Shown here piece by piece: positions 4,623 to 43,244 of a stretch of DNA of 51,396 nucleotides. A program made the position numbers and the translations under genes. The notes beneath the pieces were generated by a model that was given only the letters and a program-made list of their open reading frames with translations, was not told the origin of the DNA and searched no databases. Position 1 is the stretch's first letter; each line of letters begins with the position of its first letter. The stretch spans positions 1 to 51,396 of the forward strand of contig JABINZ010000054.1 in the NCBI GenBank assembly GCA_018698135.1. Reading direction: 5' to 3'. The stretch is from Bacteroidota bacterium. GTDB taxonomy: Bacteria; Bacteroidota; Bacteroidia; CAILMK01; JAAYUY01.

Positions 4623-5585
4623 ATGAAAATACAATTATACGGCACCAGAGGCTCTGTTCCTGTATTTAATCCAAAATCTGTTAAATACGGTGGCAATACT
4701 ACTTGTTTACGGATTATTGCTGATCAAATTCCAAATAATCACGCATTGGTTATTGACGCTGGAAGTGGATTTATTCCTATGGGAAACGATTTGTTAAATG
4801 AAACCGAAGGCAAGTTAACGCAAACCACCATATTATTTACACATTGGCATAACGATCATACACTGGGTTTATTTTTAAGCCCCATTACCTACTTTAAAAG
4901 CATTAAGATGAAGTTAATGGGCCCCAGTGAGAACAACATTGGTCCAAAGGAGATGATGGAAGACATGATGCGTCCGCCTTATTTTCCGATCGATGTCAGA
5001 GAGGTCAGAAGTAAATTCGAATACATCAATATTGATACCCCTCAGGCTCAAGTTATTTTAATTCATCCCAAAGCAATACAATTAATTGATTTAGATGTAT
5101 ATGAAACAATCGAGATCAATGACGACACTATTGAAATTGAAAACGAATTATATCCGCTGAATGAGTTTTTGGTAGTTAAAATGCACAGAGCTAAGCATCC
5201 TGATAAAACCATTTCTTTCCGTTTTGAAGATAAAAAAACAGGAAAAGTATTTGTTTTCCTTACTGATAATGAAAACGAGGATGGATTTTCAGGGCACTTA
5301 AAAAAACATGTACAAGGGGCCGATTTACTGATCATGGATGCGCAATACAGTAGAGAGAAATACATTAAACATACAGTAGGCTATGGCCATGGAACACCTG
5401 ATTATGCTGTTAGGCTGGCTGAAAAATGTGCTGTTAAGCGTCTGGGATTAACCCATCACGACCCAACGTCTGAAGATACAGATGTTGATCAAATTATGAT
5501 GGAAGGAATAAAGGCTAAATCTGCTGATTCTGATTTACAAATTTTTGCTTGTGCAGATTACATGACTGTTGAAATTAAGAACTAA
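4623..5585 (+). CDS. MBL-fold metallo-hydrolase
   Basis: Cytoplasmic metallo-beta-lactamase-fold hydrolase of 320 aa. The metal motif HWHNDH is at residues 74-79. The opening YGTRGSVPV and GGNTTCLRI, the later MDAQYSREKY (bridging Asp) and the terminal LTHHDP (His ligands) are the pattern of the phosphodiesterase-like group near RNase Z. It has no signal peptide. An internal region (about 115-190) is longer than in minimal MBL enzymes. The substrate cannot be read from sequence; a cyclic nucleotide or other phosphodiester is plausible. Its 3' end overlaps the end of the opposing rnc gene by 11 bases. Confidence 0.8.
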   Translation: MKIQLYGTRGSVPVFNPKSVKYGGNTTCLRIIADQIPNNHALVIDAGSGFIPMGNDLLNETEGKLTQTTILFTHWHNDHTLGLFLSPITYFKSIKMKLMGPSENNIGPKEMMEDMMRPPYFPIDVREVRSKFEYINIDTPQAQVILIHPKAIQLIDLDVYETIEINDDTIEIENELYPLNEFLVVKMHRAKHPDKTISFRFEDKKTGKVFVFLTDNENEDGFSGHLKKHVQGADLLIMDAQYSREKYIKHTVGYGHGTPDYAVRLAEKCAVKRLGLTHHDPTSEDTDVDQIMMEGIKAKSADSDLQIFACADYMTVEIKN

Positions 5586-6222
5586 GTAGTTTTAACTTGT
5601 TACATGCTTCTTTGGAAGCCAATTGTTCTGCTATTTTCTTTTTGGTTCCCAAACCTGATCCCAAGATTTGATCTCCTATAAAAACAGTAGATTTATAGAT
5701 TGGTGTATTTTTCTTTCCTGATTCCTCAAAAGTATATTTTATATTAACATCTTCCTTTTGAGAATATTCATATAACATTCCCTTATAATTGGTATCGTTG
5801 GATATTAATTCATCTAAATCAACCCATTTTTTCAGAATATGATTATTGACATATTTTTTGGTAAAAGCAAAACCTTTATCGAGATAAATTGCTCCAACCA
5901 ATGCTTCGAGCGCATTACCGAACATATCTCTGCTTTCGCCTTCCTTTATTTTGATACTTGATTTATTAAATTTCAGAAGAGAATCCAGACTTAATTCCAA
6001 AGCGAGATGATTTAAGTTATCGCGTTTTACAATATCAGATTTTAATCGGGTTAAATCACCTTCGTTGTATTCAGGAAGTTTTTGAATAAGATAGTCAGCT
6101 ACCAGAAAGTTTATGACAGCATCTCCCAGAAATTCAAGTTTTTCATTGTCTTCCTGGTTTCCATTCGCAACAGATCGATGTGTAAATGCATCCTTATAGA
6201 CTTGAGGATTTTCAGGACGCAC
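5575..6222 (-). CDS. rnc: Ribonuclease III
   Basis: Double-strand-specific endoribonuclease for rRNA and mRNA processing. The RNase III signature NEKLEFLGDAV is at residues 26-36 of this version, MFGNALEALVGAIYLD follows, and the C-terminal ~70 residues are a dsRNA-binding domain. The coordinates use a GTG at 6220-6222, the first ordinary start codon. That leaves only 13 residues before THRS (about 23 in E. coli), and the frame stays open upstream to 6319 with family-like sequence, so the true start is probably further up at a non-standard codon (see findings). The position equal to E. coli Asp114 is Asn (GNALEAL). Third gene after acpP and fabF. Confidence 0.9.
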   Translation of the reverse strand: MRPENPQVYKDAFTHRSVANGNQEDNEKLEFLGDAVINFLVADYLIQKLPEYNEGDLTRLKSDIVKRDNLNHLALELSLDSLLKFNKSSIKIKEGESRDMFGNALEALVGAIYLDKGFAFTKKYVNNHILKKWVDLDELISNDTNYKGMLYEYSQKEDVNIKYTFEESGKKNTPIYKSTVFIGDQILGSGLGTKKKIAEQLASKEACNKLKLLSS

Positions 6223-7913: not shown

Positions 7914-8327
7914 TTGAAAAAATCATCAATAGCTACTAATTCTGAGAACCTTCTTTTGTATGGCATTGTCAGTTTTGAGAAGGATTATCGATTGGTGTAT
8001 TTTATTAACAAAATCGCTGGAATTGAGCTAACTAAAAGTAATGATCTGCTAAATTTTTCTTTTCAGCAGAGCATAATTGAGGTACCCTTTTATGAGTATA
8101 TTGATTTCGATTTTGAATATTTTCTCATTGCCAACAAACAAAATGGAGTGAATATACTTGACAAGCTTAAAAACATCAACTACTGGCTTGTTTTAAAGAA
8201 AAAGGCCTTCGAATTTGATTTAACTGAGTTTGAAAGAAAAATTAATTCATTAGCTGTTGTACTTGGATGTTTTCATATTTCTGACGAAAAAGAGAGAGAA
8301 AAATTGGCAAAACTACTTTTCTGCTGA
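7914..8327 (+). CDS. IPExxxVDY-like family protein
   Basis: Small protein of 137 aa starting at TTG (7914-7916); no ATG is available at the N-terminus. FEKDYRLVYFINKIAGIEL and the following FYEYIDFDFEYFLIANKQ match the general shape of the Bacteroidota IPExxxVDY family, whose role is unknown. The family's IPE...VDY stretch is degenerate here (LDKLKNINYWL). It is divergent from acpP with about 105 bases between them, and its end overlaps the opposing HsdR-N gene by 15 bases. Confidence 0.6.
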   Translation: MKKSSIATNSENLLLYGIVSFEKDYRLVYFINKIAGIELTKSNDLLNFSFQQSIIEVPFYEYIDFDFEYFLIANKQNGVNILDKLKNINYWLVLKKKAFEFDLTEFERKINSLAVVLGCFHISDEKEREKLAKLLFC

Positions 8328-8777
8328 TTTATTCATTTCTTGAAAATCAGGCAATTCTTGAAGGCTTAAATTCTTTACTCCTTCAGCATGTTTCCAATAA
8401 AAATGCTTCAAACCATTTGTTATTCCAATAAATGGGGCTCTTAATTTGACATTATAGGTGGCTACCTGAAATATGACTTGCTCATTCAATTCAATAGTAC
8501 TTGCTTTGCATTCAATTAACAGCAGAGCTTGCCCTTTTTGACCATAAACAACAATATCACTTCTTTTTGCTAAACGATTGTAATTCAATCCCCTTTCAAG
8601 ACTGATTAGTTTCTGTGGTACTGATTTTTCAGTGATCAAATAATTCACAAAATGTTGCCGAACCCATTCTTCAGGGGTAAGAAAAATATATTTCTTTCTA
8701 ACCAGATCGAAAATATATAGTTTTCCTTCTCTTTTTTGAATTAAATAATCATATTTGGGCAGAGTTAAATCAAGCAT
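8313..8777 (-). CDS. HsdR N-terminal-domain protein (putative PD-(D/E)xK nuclease fold)
   Basis: Protein of about 154 aa made of one domain related to the N-terminus of type I restriction subunit R. The segment LTPEEWVRQHFVNYLI, then RSDIVVYGQKGQALLLIECKA, gives the D...ExK pattern of a PD-(D/E)xK nuclease core. I prefer the ATG at 8775-8777 (MLDLTLPKY) because the family starts about there; an ATG at 8792 and a frame running to 8849, across the holA start, also exist. No helicase part and no HsdM/HsdS are nearby, so it is not a restriction system. It is common as a lone gene next to holA in Bacteroidota; function unknown. Confidence 0.7.
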   Translation of the reverse strand: MLDLTLPKYDYLIQKREGKLYIFDLVRKKYIFLTPEEWVRQHFVNYLITEKSVPQKLISLERGLNYNRLAKRSDIVVYGQKGQALLLIECKASTIELNEQVIFQVATYNVKLRAPFIGITNGLKHFYWKHAEGVKNLSLQELPDFQEMNKSAEK

Positions 8778-39099: not shown

Positions 39100-39567
39100 A
39101 TGGAAATACATATTCCCGGTTTCAAAAAATTAGAGATAAAAAACTTAGTATTGGATTTCAATGGAACTCTAGGAAATGATGGATTATTAAATACAAACAT
39201 CATTGAGAGTGTTAACATTCTTGCTACCAAATTGAATGTATATGTATTGACAGCCGACACCTATAAAATGGTCAGAGAACAATGCATTAATTTACATGTA
39301 ACATTAAGGATTATTGCAGAAAACAATCAGGATTACACAAAAATGCAATTTGTGAAACAACTGGGCAGTGATGAAACGATATGTATCGGGAATGGACGAA
39401 ATGATTCTCTTATGCTCCAGGAAGCAGCATTGGGAATTGCTGTAATCGAAAAAGAAGGTGGTGCAGTTGCTGCAATCAATTCAGCGGATTTAGTTGTTCA
39501 GGGTATTGAAAATGCAATTGAATTATTGATGAAACCTATGCGCTTGGTTTCAACCTTACGCTCCTAA
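39100..39567 (+). CDS. Small HAD-superfamily protein (soluble P-type ATPase-like)
   Basis: Cytoplasmic protein of 155 aa built as a capless HAD domain. Motif I is LVLDFNGTL (Asp19; the usual second Asp is Asn21), motif II is VLTAD, and motif IV is CIGNGRNDSLML. It resembles the phosphorylation/P domain of P-type ATPases. With motif I D-x-N, phosphatase activity is uncertain though Asp19 is kept. It follows the sialidase-like gene by 12 bases and is perhaps cotranscribed. Its stop codon lies inside the first base of a REP-like element. Confidence 0.8.
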   Translation: MEIHIPGFKKLEIKNLVLDFNGTLGNDGLLNTNIIESVNILATKLNVYVLTADTYKMVREQCINLHVTLRIIAENNQDYTKMQFVKQLGSDETICIGNGRNDSLMLQEAALGIAVIEKEGGAVAAINSADLVVQGIENAIELLMKPMRLVSTLRS

Positions 39568-39657
39568 TGTAGGTCCGATTTAAAATCGGACTGAATTTAT
39601 TACTCCTTTTGTGACCGAATGCCAGTCTGATTTCTAGCAAGCAATTCGGTCCTACAT
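39567..39657. repeat. REP/MITE-like inverted-repeat element, copy 1
   Basis: Outer arms ATGTAGGTCCGATTT and AATTCGGTCCTACAT. Left hairpin TCCGATTT/AAATCGGA, right hairpin GACCGAAT/ATTCGGTC with a 23-base insert. It begins at the last base of the HAD stop codon. Confidence 0.75.
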
Positions 39658-39748
39658 AAATATAATCAGAATTCCAGTTCACTCAGTAACTCCAAAAAGG
39701 AATACAAAGTTCAGGCGTTAATTAATTCTGTCAAAACAATTATACTGT

Positions 39749-39817
39749 TGTAGGTCAGATTTAAAATCGGACTATTGATTTTACATCTTTTTTGACCGAA
39801 TAAAATTCGGTCCTATA
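39749..39817. repeat. REP/MITE-like inverted-repeat element, copy 2
   Basis: Starts TTGTAGGTCAGATTT, ends ATTCGGTCCTATA; same two-hairpin plan. It ends 4 bases before the stop of the VOC gene. Confidence 0.75.
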
Positions 39818-39821
39818 TCAA

Positions 39822-40265
39822 TTACTTCTCTTTCGGATTTTCATTGAAGGAAATCATCCAATTGACACCAAACTGATCGATGAACATTCCAAAATAATCG
39901 CCCCAAAAGGTTTTTTCTAAAGGCATTGTCACTTGTCCGTTTGCAGAAAGCCCATTGAACAATCTCTCCGTTTCCTTTTTAGAATCAGTATTTATTGATA
40001 TAGAGAAATTATTTCCTTGCTTATATGATGAAGCCCATTCTCCACCAACATCACTTCCCATAATCACAGTCTCCTGACTGACAGGCAATGAAATATGCAT
40101 GATTCTATCCCCATCTTCAGGTCGCATTGGCTTTTGACCGTCCTGAGCAGGCATATCTTTGTAACGGCCAACATAGGGGAATTCACCTCCAAATATCGAT
40201 TTGTAAAAATTAAAAGCTGTTTCGCAATTCCCATTAAAGGTCAGGTAAACATTTACTGTTGTCAT
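39822..40265 (-). CDS. VOC family protein (PhnB-like)
   Basis: Cytoplasmic protein of 147 aa of the glyoxalase/bleomycin-resistance/dioxygenase (VOC) superfamily. The N-terminal VNVYLTFNGNCETAFNFYKSIFGGEF and the C-terminal GDYFGMFIDQFGVNWMISF are those of PhnB-like proteins with two beta-alpha-beta-beta-beta units. Substrate unknown. It stands alone between two REP-like elements, copies 2 and 3. Confidence 0.88.
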   Translation of the reverse strand: MTTVNVYLTFNGNCETAFNFYKSIFGGEFPYVGRYKDMPAQDGQKPMRPEDGDRIMHISLPVSQETVIMGSDVGGEWASSYKQGNNFSISINTDSKKETERLFNGLSANGQVTMPLEKTFWGDYFGMFIDQFGVNWMISFNENPKEK

Positions 40266-40352
40266 AATATTTTCTTTTATTCTATAAAATTCCTGTTGCC
40301 ATTAATCAAAAGGAGTACCAGCAATATCATAAATTTGAGTATCAGAATCCTG

Positions 40353-40423
40353 ATGTAGGTCCGATTTGCAATCGGACTAATCATATTACTCCATTTTTGA
40401 CCGAATAAAATTCGGTCCTACAT
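40353..40423. repeat. REP/MITE-like inverted-repeat element, copy 3
   Basis: Starts ATGTAGGTCCGATTTGC, ends AATTCGGTCCTACAT; same plan. It ends 4 bases after the ppc stop on the plus-strand map, so it may serve as a stem after the ppc transcript. Confidence 0.75.
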
Positions 40424-40427
40424 TAAT

Positions 40428-42974
40428 TTATACAGAGTTCCTGCTGGCATTGATATTTCCATACAAAGACCTGATAATGATTTTCTCATAAAGATCTTTA
40501 TATCCTGCATTCTCACTTAGTTTTTGCAGAGCATATTGTTGGATAACTAACAAAGGCAATACGATGCTTTCTCTTATCCTGATGGATTCTCTTGAAATAG
40601 GTTCTTCTTCCATCAAAGTTGTTGTATCAGAAATAAGCAATAGCATTTCCTTTGAAAGCATATATTCCTTGTTTAATATTTCCCAAAAGTCCTTGTATTC
40701 TTCATCTTCTTTCATATAAGCTGTTAAATCAAAATTGGATTTCGATAACGACATCATGCTATTTTGAACAAGTGCCTTGAAAACAGGGACTTCAGCATAT
40801 ATTTTTTTTAAATCTTCAAGCTTGCCTTTTTTTAACAATGCCTGAATAGCTGTACCTGTACCAAAATATCCAGGCACATTTTGTTTCAACTGACTCCAGG
40901 ATCCAACAAAAGAAATGGCTCTTAAATCGGTAAGCTCAAGCTTTTCCTTATTGCCTCTTTTTCCAGGCCTGCTTCCAATATTAGCTTTTCCGTAGTATTT
41001 TAAAGTGCTTTTGTTTTCCAGATAAGAGATAAACTTAGGATGTTCTTTGAGTGCATTATATTTTTCAAAACTAATGTTTGCCAACTCTTCTAAAATTTGT
41101 CTGGCATTGTCATCAATTTCATTTTTATTTCCCAAAAAGCTTTTGGATAAACCTGCAGTAATTAATTGTTCGCAATTGTAAATAAAATGCTCTTTTGTTC
41201 CGTATTTACTGGTTATGGTTTGACCTTGTATGGTCAGTTGAATTTCATGATTAGCAATTTTCTGGCTTTGTGCCGCATAAAAACGATGCGTTTTCCCTCC
41301 ACCCCTTGCCGGGGGACCTCCACGCCCATCAAAGAAAATGGCTTTAATATTATGTTCTTCACATACTTGCGATAAAGTCTCTTTTGTTTTAATTATCGAC
41401 CAGTTTGCTTTTAGATAACCTCCATCTTTGGTTCCATCCGAAAAGCCGAGCATAATGGTTTGTTTTTCCTTTCTTCTTAAAACATGAGCACGGTATTCGG
41501 GCAGTTCAAAAAGTTCTTTCATGATCGATTCAGAACTGTTCATGCCCTCCATGGTTTCAAAAAGAGGAATAATGTCGAATGTAAGTTTTTGTACTTCCCA
41601 ACCACACCATCTGAACAAAGCATAAACAAAAAGTACGGAGAATATATTTTCGGAATTACTGATAATGTAGCGATTACAACCTTCTTCCCCATTTTTATGT
41701 TGAATATTTTTTAACTGAGAAATATTCCTGATTGTATCCTCAAATATTTCTTCTTCAAAGCTATCTGGATCAATGTTGAAATTTTGATGAAGCAAAATGG
41801 AGATTAGCTCTTTCTCATCAAGTTCATCTATACTTTCATTAATAATTCCTTTCTGCTTTAAAATTGCTGTAACTACTTTCTCATGAATGCTATGATCCTG
41901 TCTTATGTCGAGGCTGGCAAAATGGGTCCTAAATATTTTAACCCTGTCAATTAATCTCTTCAGGTCTTCCAGGTACAGGCTATGATATGTATTGCTTACA
42001 ATTTCCTGAACCTCCAAAAGGGGATTAATAATTTCTTCGTAGGACAAGTATCTTTCTGAATTAAAGATGGTTTGGTAAATTTTGTCTCTCAGTTCCTGAA
42101 GTATATTTTCAACCTCCCTGAAAGTGAGTTTCTTCTGTATGCTTTTAATGTCGTCATCGTAACATTTCATCAAGCTCATGCGCAATTCATCCGCTACATC
42201 CTTGGTAATATCGAATGTTACAAATGGATTGCCATCCCTATCCCCTCCCGGCCAGAAGCCTAATTTTACTAAGTCAGTATTATCAAAATCACTAGTATTG
42301 ATATGATCCTTGATGCATGCATATAAATCACTTACAGCAAAATAATACACATCTCGTAGATAATATATGATATTTTTTGCCTCATCAAGAGGTGTTGGCT
42401 TTTTGGAATTGATGAGAGATGTCAATCCCAATTGCTGCAAGGTTTTGTCTATATCATCAATTTTGTTTTCGGCTATCAGCAACTTCAAAGAGCTTATGAT
42501 TTCAAGTACTGAGGGTGGATAGAACTGCGTTGGATGAGCGGTAAAGACGATTCGGGCACTGAAAGAGGAAAGTTTTTCAGCAATTTCCTCCCGTATTTTG
42601 GCATTGTCGAACAATTGAAAAAATCCTTTGATCGATAAATCATCACTCAATTCCTGTATGGAAGAAAAAGCAGCATCTTCAACACTATCGTACAATACAA
42701 CCTGTCTTTCAACATACTGAATAACCCGAAACATAAAATCGAGTTGTTCTTTTTCTTCATCCAAATTAAGCTGTTGTTGAAAAAACGAACCTAAAATTTC
42801 CTTGGGATGCAGCCCTTCTTTAAGACCAGTTTTACACACATTATTCAACATGGGAATCAATGTTCCAATATTATATTCCTTGCTATAAGGCAGGTTCAGA
42901 AATAAACTGTTGTAAATACTGAACTTTGTATTAACCAGTTTTTCAAACAGTTCGATTCGTTTTGATGGATACAT
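40428..42974 (-). CDS. ppc: Phosphoenolpyruvate carboxylase
   Basis: Anaplerotic enzyme fixing bicarbonate onto PEP to give oxaloacetate. 848 aa, a little shorter than E. coli (883). Motifs: VFTAHPTQFYPPS with the catalytic His, LGFWPGGDRDGNPFVT, LDIRQDHS, FSDGTKDGGYLKANW and FDGRGGPPARGGGKTHRFYA with the mobile glycine-rich loop. The loop reads GRGGPPARGG, against GRGGSIGRGG in E. coli. It is a single gene flanked by REP-like copies 3 and 4. Confidence 0.96.
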   Translation of the reverse strand: MYPSKRIELFEKLVNTKFSIYNSLFLNLPYSKEYNIGTLIPMLNNVCKTGLKEGLHPKEILGSFFQQQLNLDEEKEQLDFMFRVIQYVERQVVLYDSVEDAAFSSIQELSDDLSIKGFFQLFDNAKIREEIAEKLSSFSARIVFTAHPTQFYPPSVLEIISSLKLLIAENKIDDIDKTLQQLGLTSLINSKKPTPLDEAKNIIYYLRDVYYFAVSDLYACIKDHINTSDFDNTDLVKLGFWPGGDRDGNPFVTFDITKDVADELRMSLMKCYDDDIKSIQKKLTFREVENILQELRDKIYQTIFNSERYLSYEEIINPLLEVQEIVSNTYHSLYLEDLKRLIDRVKIFRTHFASLDIRQDHSIHEKVVTAILKQKGIINESIDELDEKELISILLHQNFNIDPDSFEEEIFEDTIRNISQLKNIQHKNGEEGCNRYIISNSENIFSVLFVYALFRWCGWEVQKLTFDIIPLFETMEGMNSSESIMKELFELPEYRAHVLRRKEKQTIMLGFSDGTKDGGYLKANWSIIKTKETLSQVCEEHNIKAIFFDGRGGPPARGGGKTHRFYAAQSQKIANHEIQLTIQGQTITSKYGTKEHFIYNCEQLITAGLSKSFLGNKNEIDDNARQILEELANISFEKYNALKEHPKFISYLENKSTLKYYGKANIGSRPGKRGNKEKLELTDLRAISFVGSWSQLKQNVPGYFGTGTAIQALLKKGKLEDLKKIYAEVPVFKALVQNSMMSLSKSNFDLTAYMKEDEEYKDFWEILNKEYMLSKEMLLLISDTTTLMEEEPISRESIRIRESIVLPLLVIQQYALQKLSENAGYKDLYEKIIIRSLYGNINASRNSV

Positions 42975-43080
42975 TTTGGTTCTTTTTCAATTTCAGGATA
43001 TTTACGTAAAGGTAATTATTTGAGTGGAATTAATCTAGCAAATGCAACTTGAAAAGCACATGTGTTAACTAAAATTTCTA

Positions 43081-43170
43081 ATGTAGGTCTGATTTGCCTG
43101 CCAGAAGTCAGGCTGGTAATCGGATTATTTTCGTACTTCTTTATTGACCGAATGCAATTCGGTCTTACAT
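43081..43170. repeat. REP/MITE-like inverted-repeat element, copy 4
   Basis: Starts ATGTAGGTCTGATTT, ends AATTCGGTCTTACAT. The left hairpin carries a 21-base insert (GCCTGCCAGAAGTCAGGC, continuing TGG), while copy 1 has its insert in the right hairpin. Confidence 0.75.
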
Positions 43171-43213
43171 TTCTATTCTATTATCAGCCTTGAGATACTA
43201 ATACATCGTTCAC

Positions 43214-43239
43214 TCAGTGTCCTCTTTGAGAGACACTGA
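43214..43239. repeat. Hairpin next to the thiS stop codon
   Basis: TCAGTGT and ACACTGA with inner CTCT/AGAG form an 11-pair stem with one bulged C. No T-run follows on the minus strand, so I do not call it a terminator. Confidence 0.4.
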
Positions 43240-43244
43240 TGAGG

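Follow-up and report, generated by a model that had tools for sequence, protein, structure and literature searches.

Four hairpin repeats around ppc in a Bacteroidota genome as probable members of a new REPIN family, with a RAYT gene in a sister species

What are the four hairpin-rich repeats that lie clustered around ppc, the gene for phosphoenolpyruvate (PEP) carboxylase, in a Bacteroidota genome, and by what activity did they spread? The stretch of DNA that we analysed (the window, 51,396 nucleotides) is contig JABINZ010000054.1 (C54) of a Bacteroidota assembly of 4.23 Mb in 287 contigs. With high confidence the repeats are REPINs: non-autonomous inverted pairs of repetitive extragenic palindromic (REP) hairpins, spread in trans by a REP-associated tyrosine transposase (RAYT, or TnpA-REP) that resembles subclass 2.4. 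The evidence comprises the anatomy of the units, the covariation within their stems, their copy number and intergenic bias, and a hairpin-flanked RAYT with intact catalytic motifs and the TnpA-REP fold. The system is ordinary in kind; as a family it is new and well supported, and its sole surprising part, worth a second look, is a 20-nt module found at the tip of some hairpins.

The first-pass annotation had described four clustered copies with two internal hairpins each, and all are present on the plus strand: copy 1 at 39567..39657 (91 bp), copy 2 at 39748..39818 (71 bp), copy 3 at 40353..40423 (71 bp) and copy 4 at 43081..43170 (90 bp). The ends given earlier were exact for copies 1, 3 and 4, while copy 2 is one base longer at each end. 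Each copy reads ATGTAG, an 8-bp stem with a 3-nt loop, a spacer, another 8-bp stem with a 3-nt loop, and CTACAT, the stems being GTCCGATT/AATCGGAC on the left and GACCGAAT/ATTCGGTC on the right; since reading 5' to 3' from either side gives GTAG followed by a hairpin, the two hairpins form an inverted pair. The hairpin family is represented by the sequences GTAGGTCCGAATTCCATTCGGAC and GTAGGACCGAATTTTATTCGGTC. Both hairpins are short in copy 2 (3-nt loops; one mismatch in the left stem, GTCAGATT) and in copy 3 (perfect stems). Copy 1 combines a short left hairpin (39572-39592) with a right hairpin that holds the tip module (39622..39641, minus strand, the diverged version CTTGCTAGAAATCAGACTGG); copy 4 has the module in its left hairpin (43097..43116, plus strand, CCTGCCAGAAGTCAGGCTGG) and a short right one. 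The inserts noticed before in opposite hairpins of these two copies are thus one and the same module, and the idea that loops vary, which holds for the 3-nt loops, is sharpened by this discrete, recurring insert.

Such a cluster lies far above chance. If up to 2 mismatches are allowed, the window has 7 occurrences of ATGTAGGTCCGAT where 0.63 would be expected, a count that 0 of 100 shuffles attained; of perfect hairpins with GTAG, 8 bp, 3 nt and 8 bp it has 3, whereas 200 dinucleotide shuffles average 0.01 and never exceed 1. The genes around the copies encode a HAD-like protein, a VOC/glyoxalase protein, PEP carboxylase and ThiF, and the placement beside stop codons or just upstream of ppc was seen as described earlier. 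The final base of the TAA that ends the HAD-like gene (39567) falls within copy 1. Copies 2 and 3 end 4 and 5 nt, respectively, from the stops of the VOC/glyoxalase gene (39822-40265, minus strand) and of ppc (40428-42974, minus strand). Copy 4 is situated about 107 nt upstream of where ppc starts, on the downstream side of a ThiS-like open reading frame (ThiS identity judged by eye). Rfam, at gathering thresholds, gave no match in the window.

Is this a dispersed family? Copies were gathered by pattern searches and from fetched stretches. A strict hairpin pattern matched 39 times in the window genome, 12 times in a metagenome-assembled genome of the same genus (the sister species) and 19 times in a genome of the same order, with 0 matches of the reversed control pattern in all three and 1 marginal match in the remaining 57 genomes. 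In the window genome a fuzzy motif and hairpin scan of the fetched stretches gave 49 readings (about 45 distinct ones after merging readings of both strands) on 12 contigs, and one further hairpin on C249 brings these to 13; they are spread over about 21 intergenic regions, and all 49 readings are intergenic, with 0 inside open reading frames. The outcome named earlier as refuting, a genome without more copies or copies without conserved ends, did not occur: copies with conserved ends are many. Adjacent hairpins are oriented (+,-) in 25 cases versus 4 on the same strand, and the 21 inverted pairs extracted from the three genomes have arms that are mostly unlike in sequence and variable spacers. 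A related REPIN array in the same-order genome (G006:C33:46588-47542, L145) has GTCCGATT on the left, GTCCCAAT on the right and a spacer of about 76 nt, its units being spaced 110-240 nt.

The stems themselves were compared in 40 distinct hairpins from the three genomes, which also share a strongly conserved TGTAG foot. Paired cells made up 97.2% versus 81.6% in shuffles, double-sided changes numbered 40 versus 12.7 and the covariation score was 0.378 versus 0.113, each matched by 0 of 500 shuffles, figures that are somewhat inflated by the relatedness of the sequences and by a scan that itself demanded a hairpin. Pairing falls to 30-50% when the partner is slid by one column, and alternations of G-C/A-T, T-A/A-T/G-C and A-T/T-A are plain in the hairpin sequences.

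Which transposase would serve these hairpins? As stated before, the window contains no RAYT-type transposase, and no Y1/RAYT gene lies on its contig. The sister species (G001; the record is JADHTG010000035.1, 'Bacteroidetes bacterium BS150m-G14') encodes a RAYT of 190 amino acids (P0001), its gene lying between clusters of the same hairpins. The protein scores 80.6 bits against NCBIfam NF047646 (cut-off 80) and 40.5 bits against PF01797; the HUH and WQ motifs and the catalytic tyrosine are present, and residues H101, H103, W139 and Y160 are invariant among 36 relatives. Its AlphaFold model (pLDDT 91) has as top match in the PDB 4er8, TnpA-REP with a REP hairpin (E 1.2e-7). The motifs NHVH, F-W-Q and YILNNP, together with the length, agree with the published table for subclass 2.4 (NH[IFV]H, WQ, YIxNNP; ~194 amino acids; Bacteroidetes/Cyanobacteria; PMC6006769), so that, judged by its motifs, the protein resembles subclass 2.4 (Quentin et al. 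2018). GTAG hairpins number 118 within 400 nt of the genes of 66 RAYT relatives from several phyla (51 kb) versus 3 at 1.5-2.5 kb (112 kb), and occur at 39 of the 66 loci, where most of them share the 8+3+8 architecture; since they concentrate beside these genes, the association between this clade of RAYTs and this type of hairpin is general.

By analogy with work on E. coli, Pseudomonas, Stenotrophomonas and Marinomonas, the RAYT would bind the 8-bp/3-nt hairpin with its 5' GTAG guide in single-stranded DNA (e.g. the lagging-strand template), its HUH/Tyr active site would nick beside the hairpins, and the unit, as a single strand, would then move, or be copied, into a different intergenic position. 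In this reading, some loops gained the 20-nt hairpin insert later. Binding of the folded single strand through GTAG guide and hairpin, cleavage nearby and transfer of the unit are modelled on E. coli, Stenotrophomonas and Marinomonas biochemistry (PMC8266576) and on the excision reads of P. fluorescens SBW25 (PMC3116915). The SBW25 REPINs (Bertels and Rainey 2011, PMC3116915) are likewise inverted REP pairs with a spacer, intergenic, dispersed and clustered, with compensatory stem changes and, as in the sister species here, a cognate RAYT flanked by the same REPs. The present ones differ by their Bacteroidota host, copy numbers of only tens, 20-nt tip inserts, arms mostly unlike in sequence (GTCCGATT on the left, GACCGAAT on the right) and the apparent absence of the RAYT from the window genome. 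With subclass 2.4 and its canonical or double-foot REPs (PMC6006769) the system shares NHVH, WQ and YIxNNP, the length of about 190 amino acids, the occurrence in Bacteroidetes and a GTAG foot directly on the hairpin, whereas the sister-species RAYT gene is without an internal REP and its placement here rests on motifs. The E. coli TnpA-REP/REPtron (4er8) likewise has the HUH/Tyr fold and inverted pairs of GTAG-tagged hairpins; identity to it is only about 15%, and in contrast to the imperfect, bulged palindromes of E. coli (PMC8266576) the 8-bp stems are perfect here, with a 3-nt loop.

The age of the copies can be gauged at contig C87 of the sister species, which is collinear with the window. 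There, the gap upstream of ppc that holds copy 4 in the window likewise contains a REPIN, with the tip module in the opposite arm, and a decayed right hairpin lies downstream of ppc at the place of copy 3; neither copies 1 and 2 nor the VOC gene occur there. Because of these counterparts at the same places, copies 3 and 4, at least, are probably older than the split of the two species, and the comparison of the two sequences indicates that the gap between the HAD-like gene and ppc has changed after it. The sister species also carries a second, partial ppc, 71% identical across the first 289 amino acids, that reaches a contig end (C87:5705-8251; C129:6396-7262; L151, L152).

Some observations sit less easily with the REPIN interpretation. 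For none of the single insertions was an allele without the REPIN isolated, the sister locus that lacks copies 1 and 2 being also the one without the VOC gene; the ends of the unit are uncertain, with extra bases (TTAGTG) outside CTACAT common to several copies; and the assembly of the window genome holds no ortholog of P0001, the best match having 26% identity. Could the hairpins instead be host RNA elements, i.e. terminators or 3'-end stabilisers of mRNA, selected beside stop codons rather than mobile? About 11 of the ~19 classifiable places in the window genome are convergent (7 tandem, 1 divergent; counted by hand), many hairpins lie within tens of bases of stops, RNA pairing would also produce stem covariation, and copies 1 and 4 have one terminator-like match each. 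On the minus strand, however, which is that of ppc and VOC, the hairpins are not followed by a T-run; the conserved GTAG feet lie outside the stem, where a terminator has no need of them; a RAYT is flanked on both sides by the same hairpins; and proximity to stop codons is typical for REPs generally (PMC3733652). We consider this explanation improbable, and the hairpins may have a secondary role after insertion. As intrinsic terminators they were rejected: 2 of 8 hairpins match a loose scan, both on the plus strand with interrupted T-runs, and 0 on the ppc/VOC strand. Of the earlier label 'REP/MITE-like', the REP part is right, and 'MITE-like' (miniature inverted-repeat transposable element) fits in the loose sense of a non-autonomous element mobilised in trans, but the kinship is probably with the HUH/Y1 single-strand transposases rather than with DDE transposons with target duplications. 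A DDE-type MITE was considered and not adopted; the ends are inverted repeats, with no consistent flanking duplication by eye at the occupied sites.

Where, then, is the transposase of the window genome? Its 13 Y1 proteins (11 RAYT-like, 2 IS200-like; L021-L033) are a rich set for one 4.2-Mb genome, and several of the genes are flanked by differing palindromes. That one of the other 11 RAYT-like proteins mobilised the copies would fit this supply in a genome with no P0001 ortholog, but GTAGGTCCGA hairpins were found in none of the RAYT flanks read (150-250 nt per gene), several of which have a palindrome of their own, RAYT/REP pairs are reported to be specific (PMC6006769, PMC8266576), and the same hairpins occur in the sister species, the holder of the cognate RAYT; we regard it as very improbable. 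With no RAYT ortholog found in their own assembly, the copies of the window genome may be orphans, and because of this absence they are either relics or dependent on a RAYT that was not assembled. The latter, a variant of the REPIN explanation in which the copies are no orphans, is a serious possibility, if short of an even chance: the assembly has 287 contigs, REPs are found on the very short contigs C14 and C176 and close to an end of C167, and the sister-species RAYT sits within a REPIN cluster, a place prone to break short-read assemblies. Completeness, on the other side, is 97%, and 13 other Y1 genes were assembled, several with flanking repeats. Copy 4 is adjoined by a second-family palindrome (43213..43241, plus strand, TCAGTGTCCTCTTTGAGAGACACTGA; read by eye), of the type CAGTGTC...GACACTG, which also occurs at the orthologous C87 of the sister species (~5570-5650 and 8290-8360); similar palindromes flank 2 other RAYT genes of the window genome (C278:38530 and C180:11011; L028, L031), so that two RAYT-linked repeat families share intergenic regions.

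The REPIN family being placed, what is the tip module? It is a 20-nt imperfect hairpin that sits between the two outer loop bases in constant orientation relative to GTAG, in 7 REP hairpins of the window genome and 2 of the sister species. The same 20 nt recur in an unrelated, dispersed, leader-like repeat of about 95 nt (TGAAACRAGCATGAG...GGAAATGACTATATGCGAGTTCCATATGACCTTTTAAAA) of the window genome, at the site GACTATATGYGAGTTC^CATATGACC, where 5 copies are empty, 3 are filled (with 1 base different in one) and a fourth, diverged filled copy lies on C108. The copies of this repeat (C52:1992, C59:1061, C129:1320, C267:2382, C282:5019, C254:18727 and 19116, C270:4293 and C108:14540; L257-L264, L167), several of them just upstream of a likely start codon, have two variable hairpins, the 20-nt module and CCTGTGTGCCGAAACACTTCGGTGTGCAGG, and no Rfam match at E <= 1. 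The filled sites all read TTN^YA, and the insertions have no target duplication beyond a possible single C. Further repeats hold GC-rich palindromes related to the module (CCTGCCAGCCGGCAGGCTGG and similar). A search for the module across 395 genomes of the class gave 2 matches outside this genus, in contexts that look like coding chance, and a literature search returned nothing on its sequence.

The exact boundaries shared in two unrelated contexts with empty sites favour an insertion over a deletion; template switching is also conceivable, given the short similarity GARTTC^CATW that spans the REP and leader-like contexts. We tentatively suggest that the CCTGCCAGAAGTCAGGCTGG hairpin, with its sister-species variants, could be a micro-element inserted precisely, in fixed orientation and without target duplication, into TTN^YA loops of unrelated repeats, moved by some activity or by template switching between hairpin tips; it might then be a hairpin parasite far smaller than any autonomous element. 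An ancestral module, with the short loops arising by repeated deletion of the hairpin tip, is the converse and in our view unlikely: hairpin tips are liable to slippage deletion, and long and short forms alternate between orthologous copies (copy 4 versus C87), but the same 20-nt boundaries recur in the unrelated repeat (5 empty and 3 filled copies), independent deletions would need the identical two end bases in two unrelated contexts with a direct repeat of at most 1 bp, and the short form is that of the sister-species REPtron and prevails across the RAYT relatives. IS1397, IS621, ISKpn1 and ISPpu9 (PMC1525189, PMC8450116) also insert specifically into REP palindromes; unlike them, full insertion sequences, the module is 20 nt long, non-coding and also present in a non-REP repeat.

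Apart from the REPIN family, a Y1/RAYT domain with HUH motif was observed in frame within Eco57I-type (IIG-like) restriction-modification methyltransferases of two genera of the window's family (G003:C231:3198-7676, L146; G002:C484:3-3341, L147). It directly precedes the motif DPACGSGAF/DPAAGSGAF, and the neighbouring genes include ones of PLD-SNF2 helicase, KilA-N-like and DUF1016-like types. A literature search returned nothing on Y1 domains inside methyltransferases, and it would be unusual for a defence methyltransferase to contain a domesticated HUH domain.

REPIN/RAYT biology is based mostly on gammaproteobacteria, and the present family adds a well-delimited Bacteroidota REPIN/RAYT duo with a structural model and strong covariation. 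A genus with a RAYT in one species and apparently none in another is useful for asking for what length of time REPINs persist in the absence of their transposase. Should the tip module prove mobile, it would rank among the smallest precise insertions on record and would open the targeting of loops in folded DNA to direct test.

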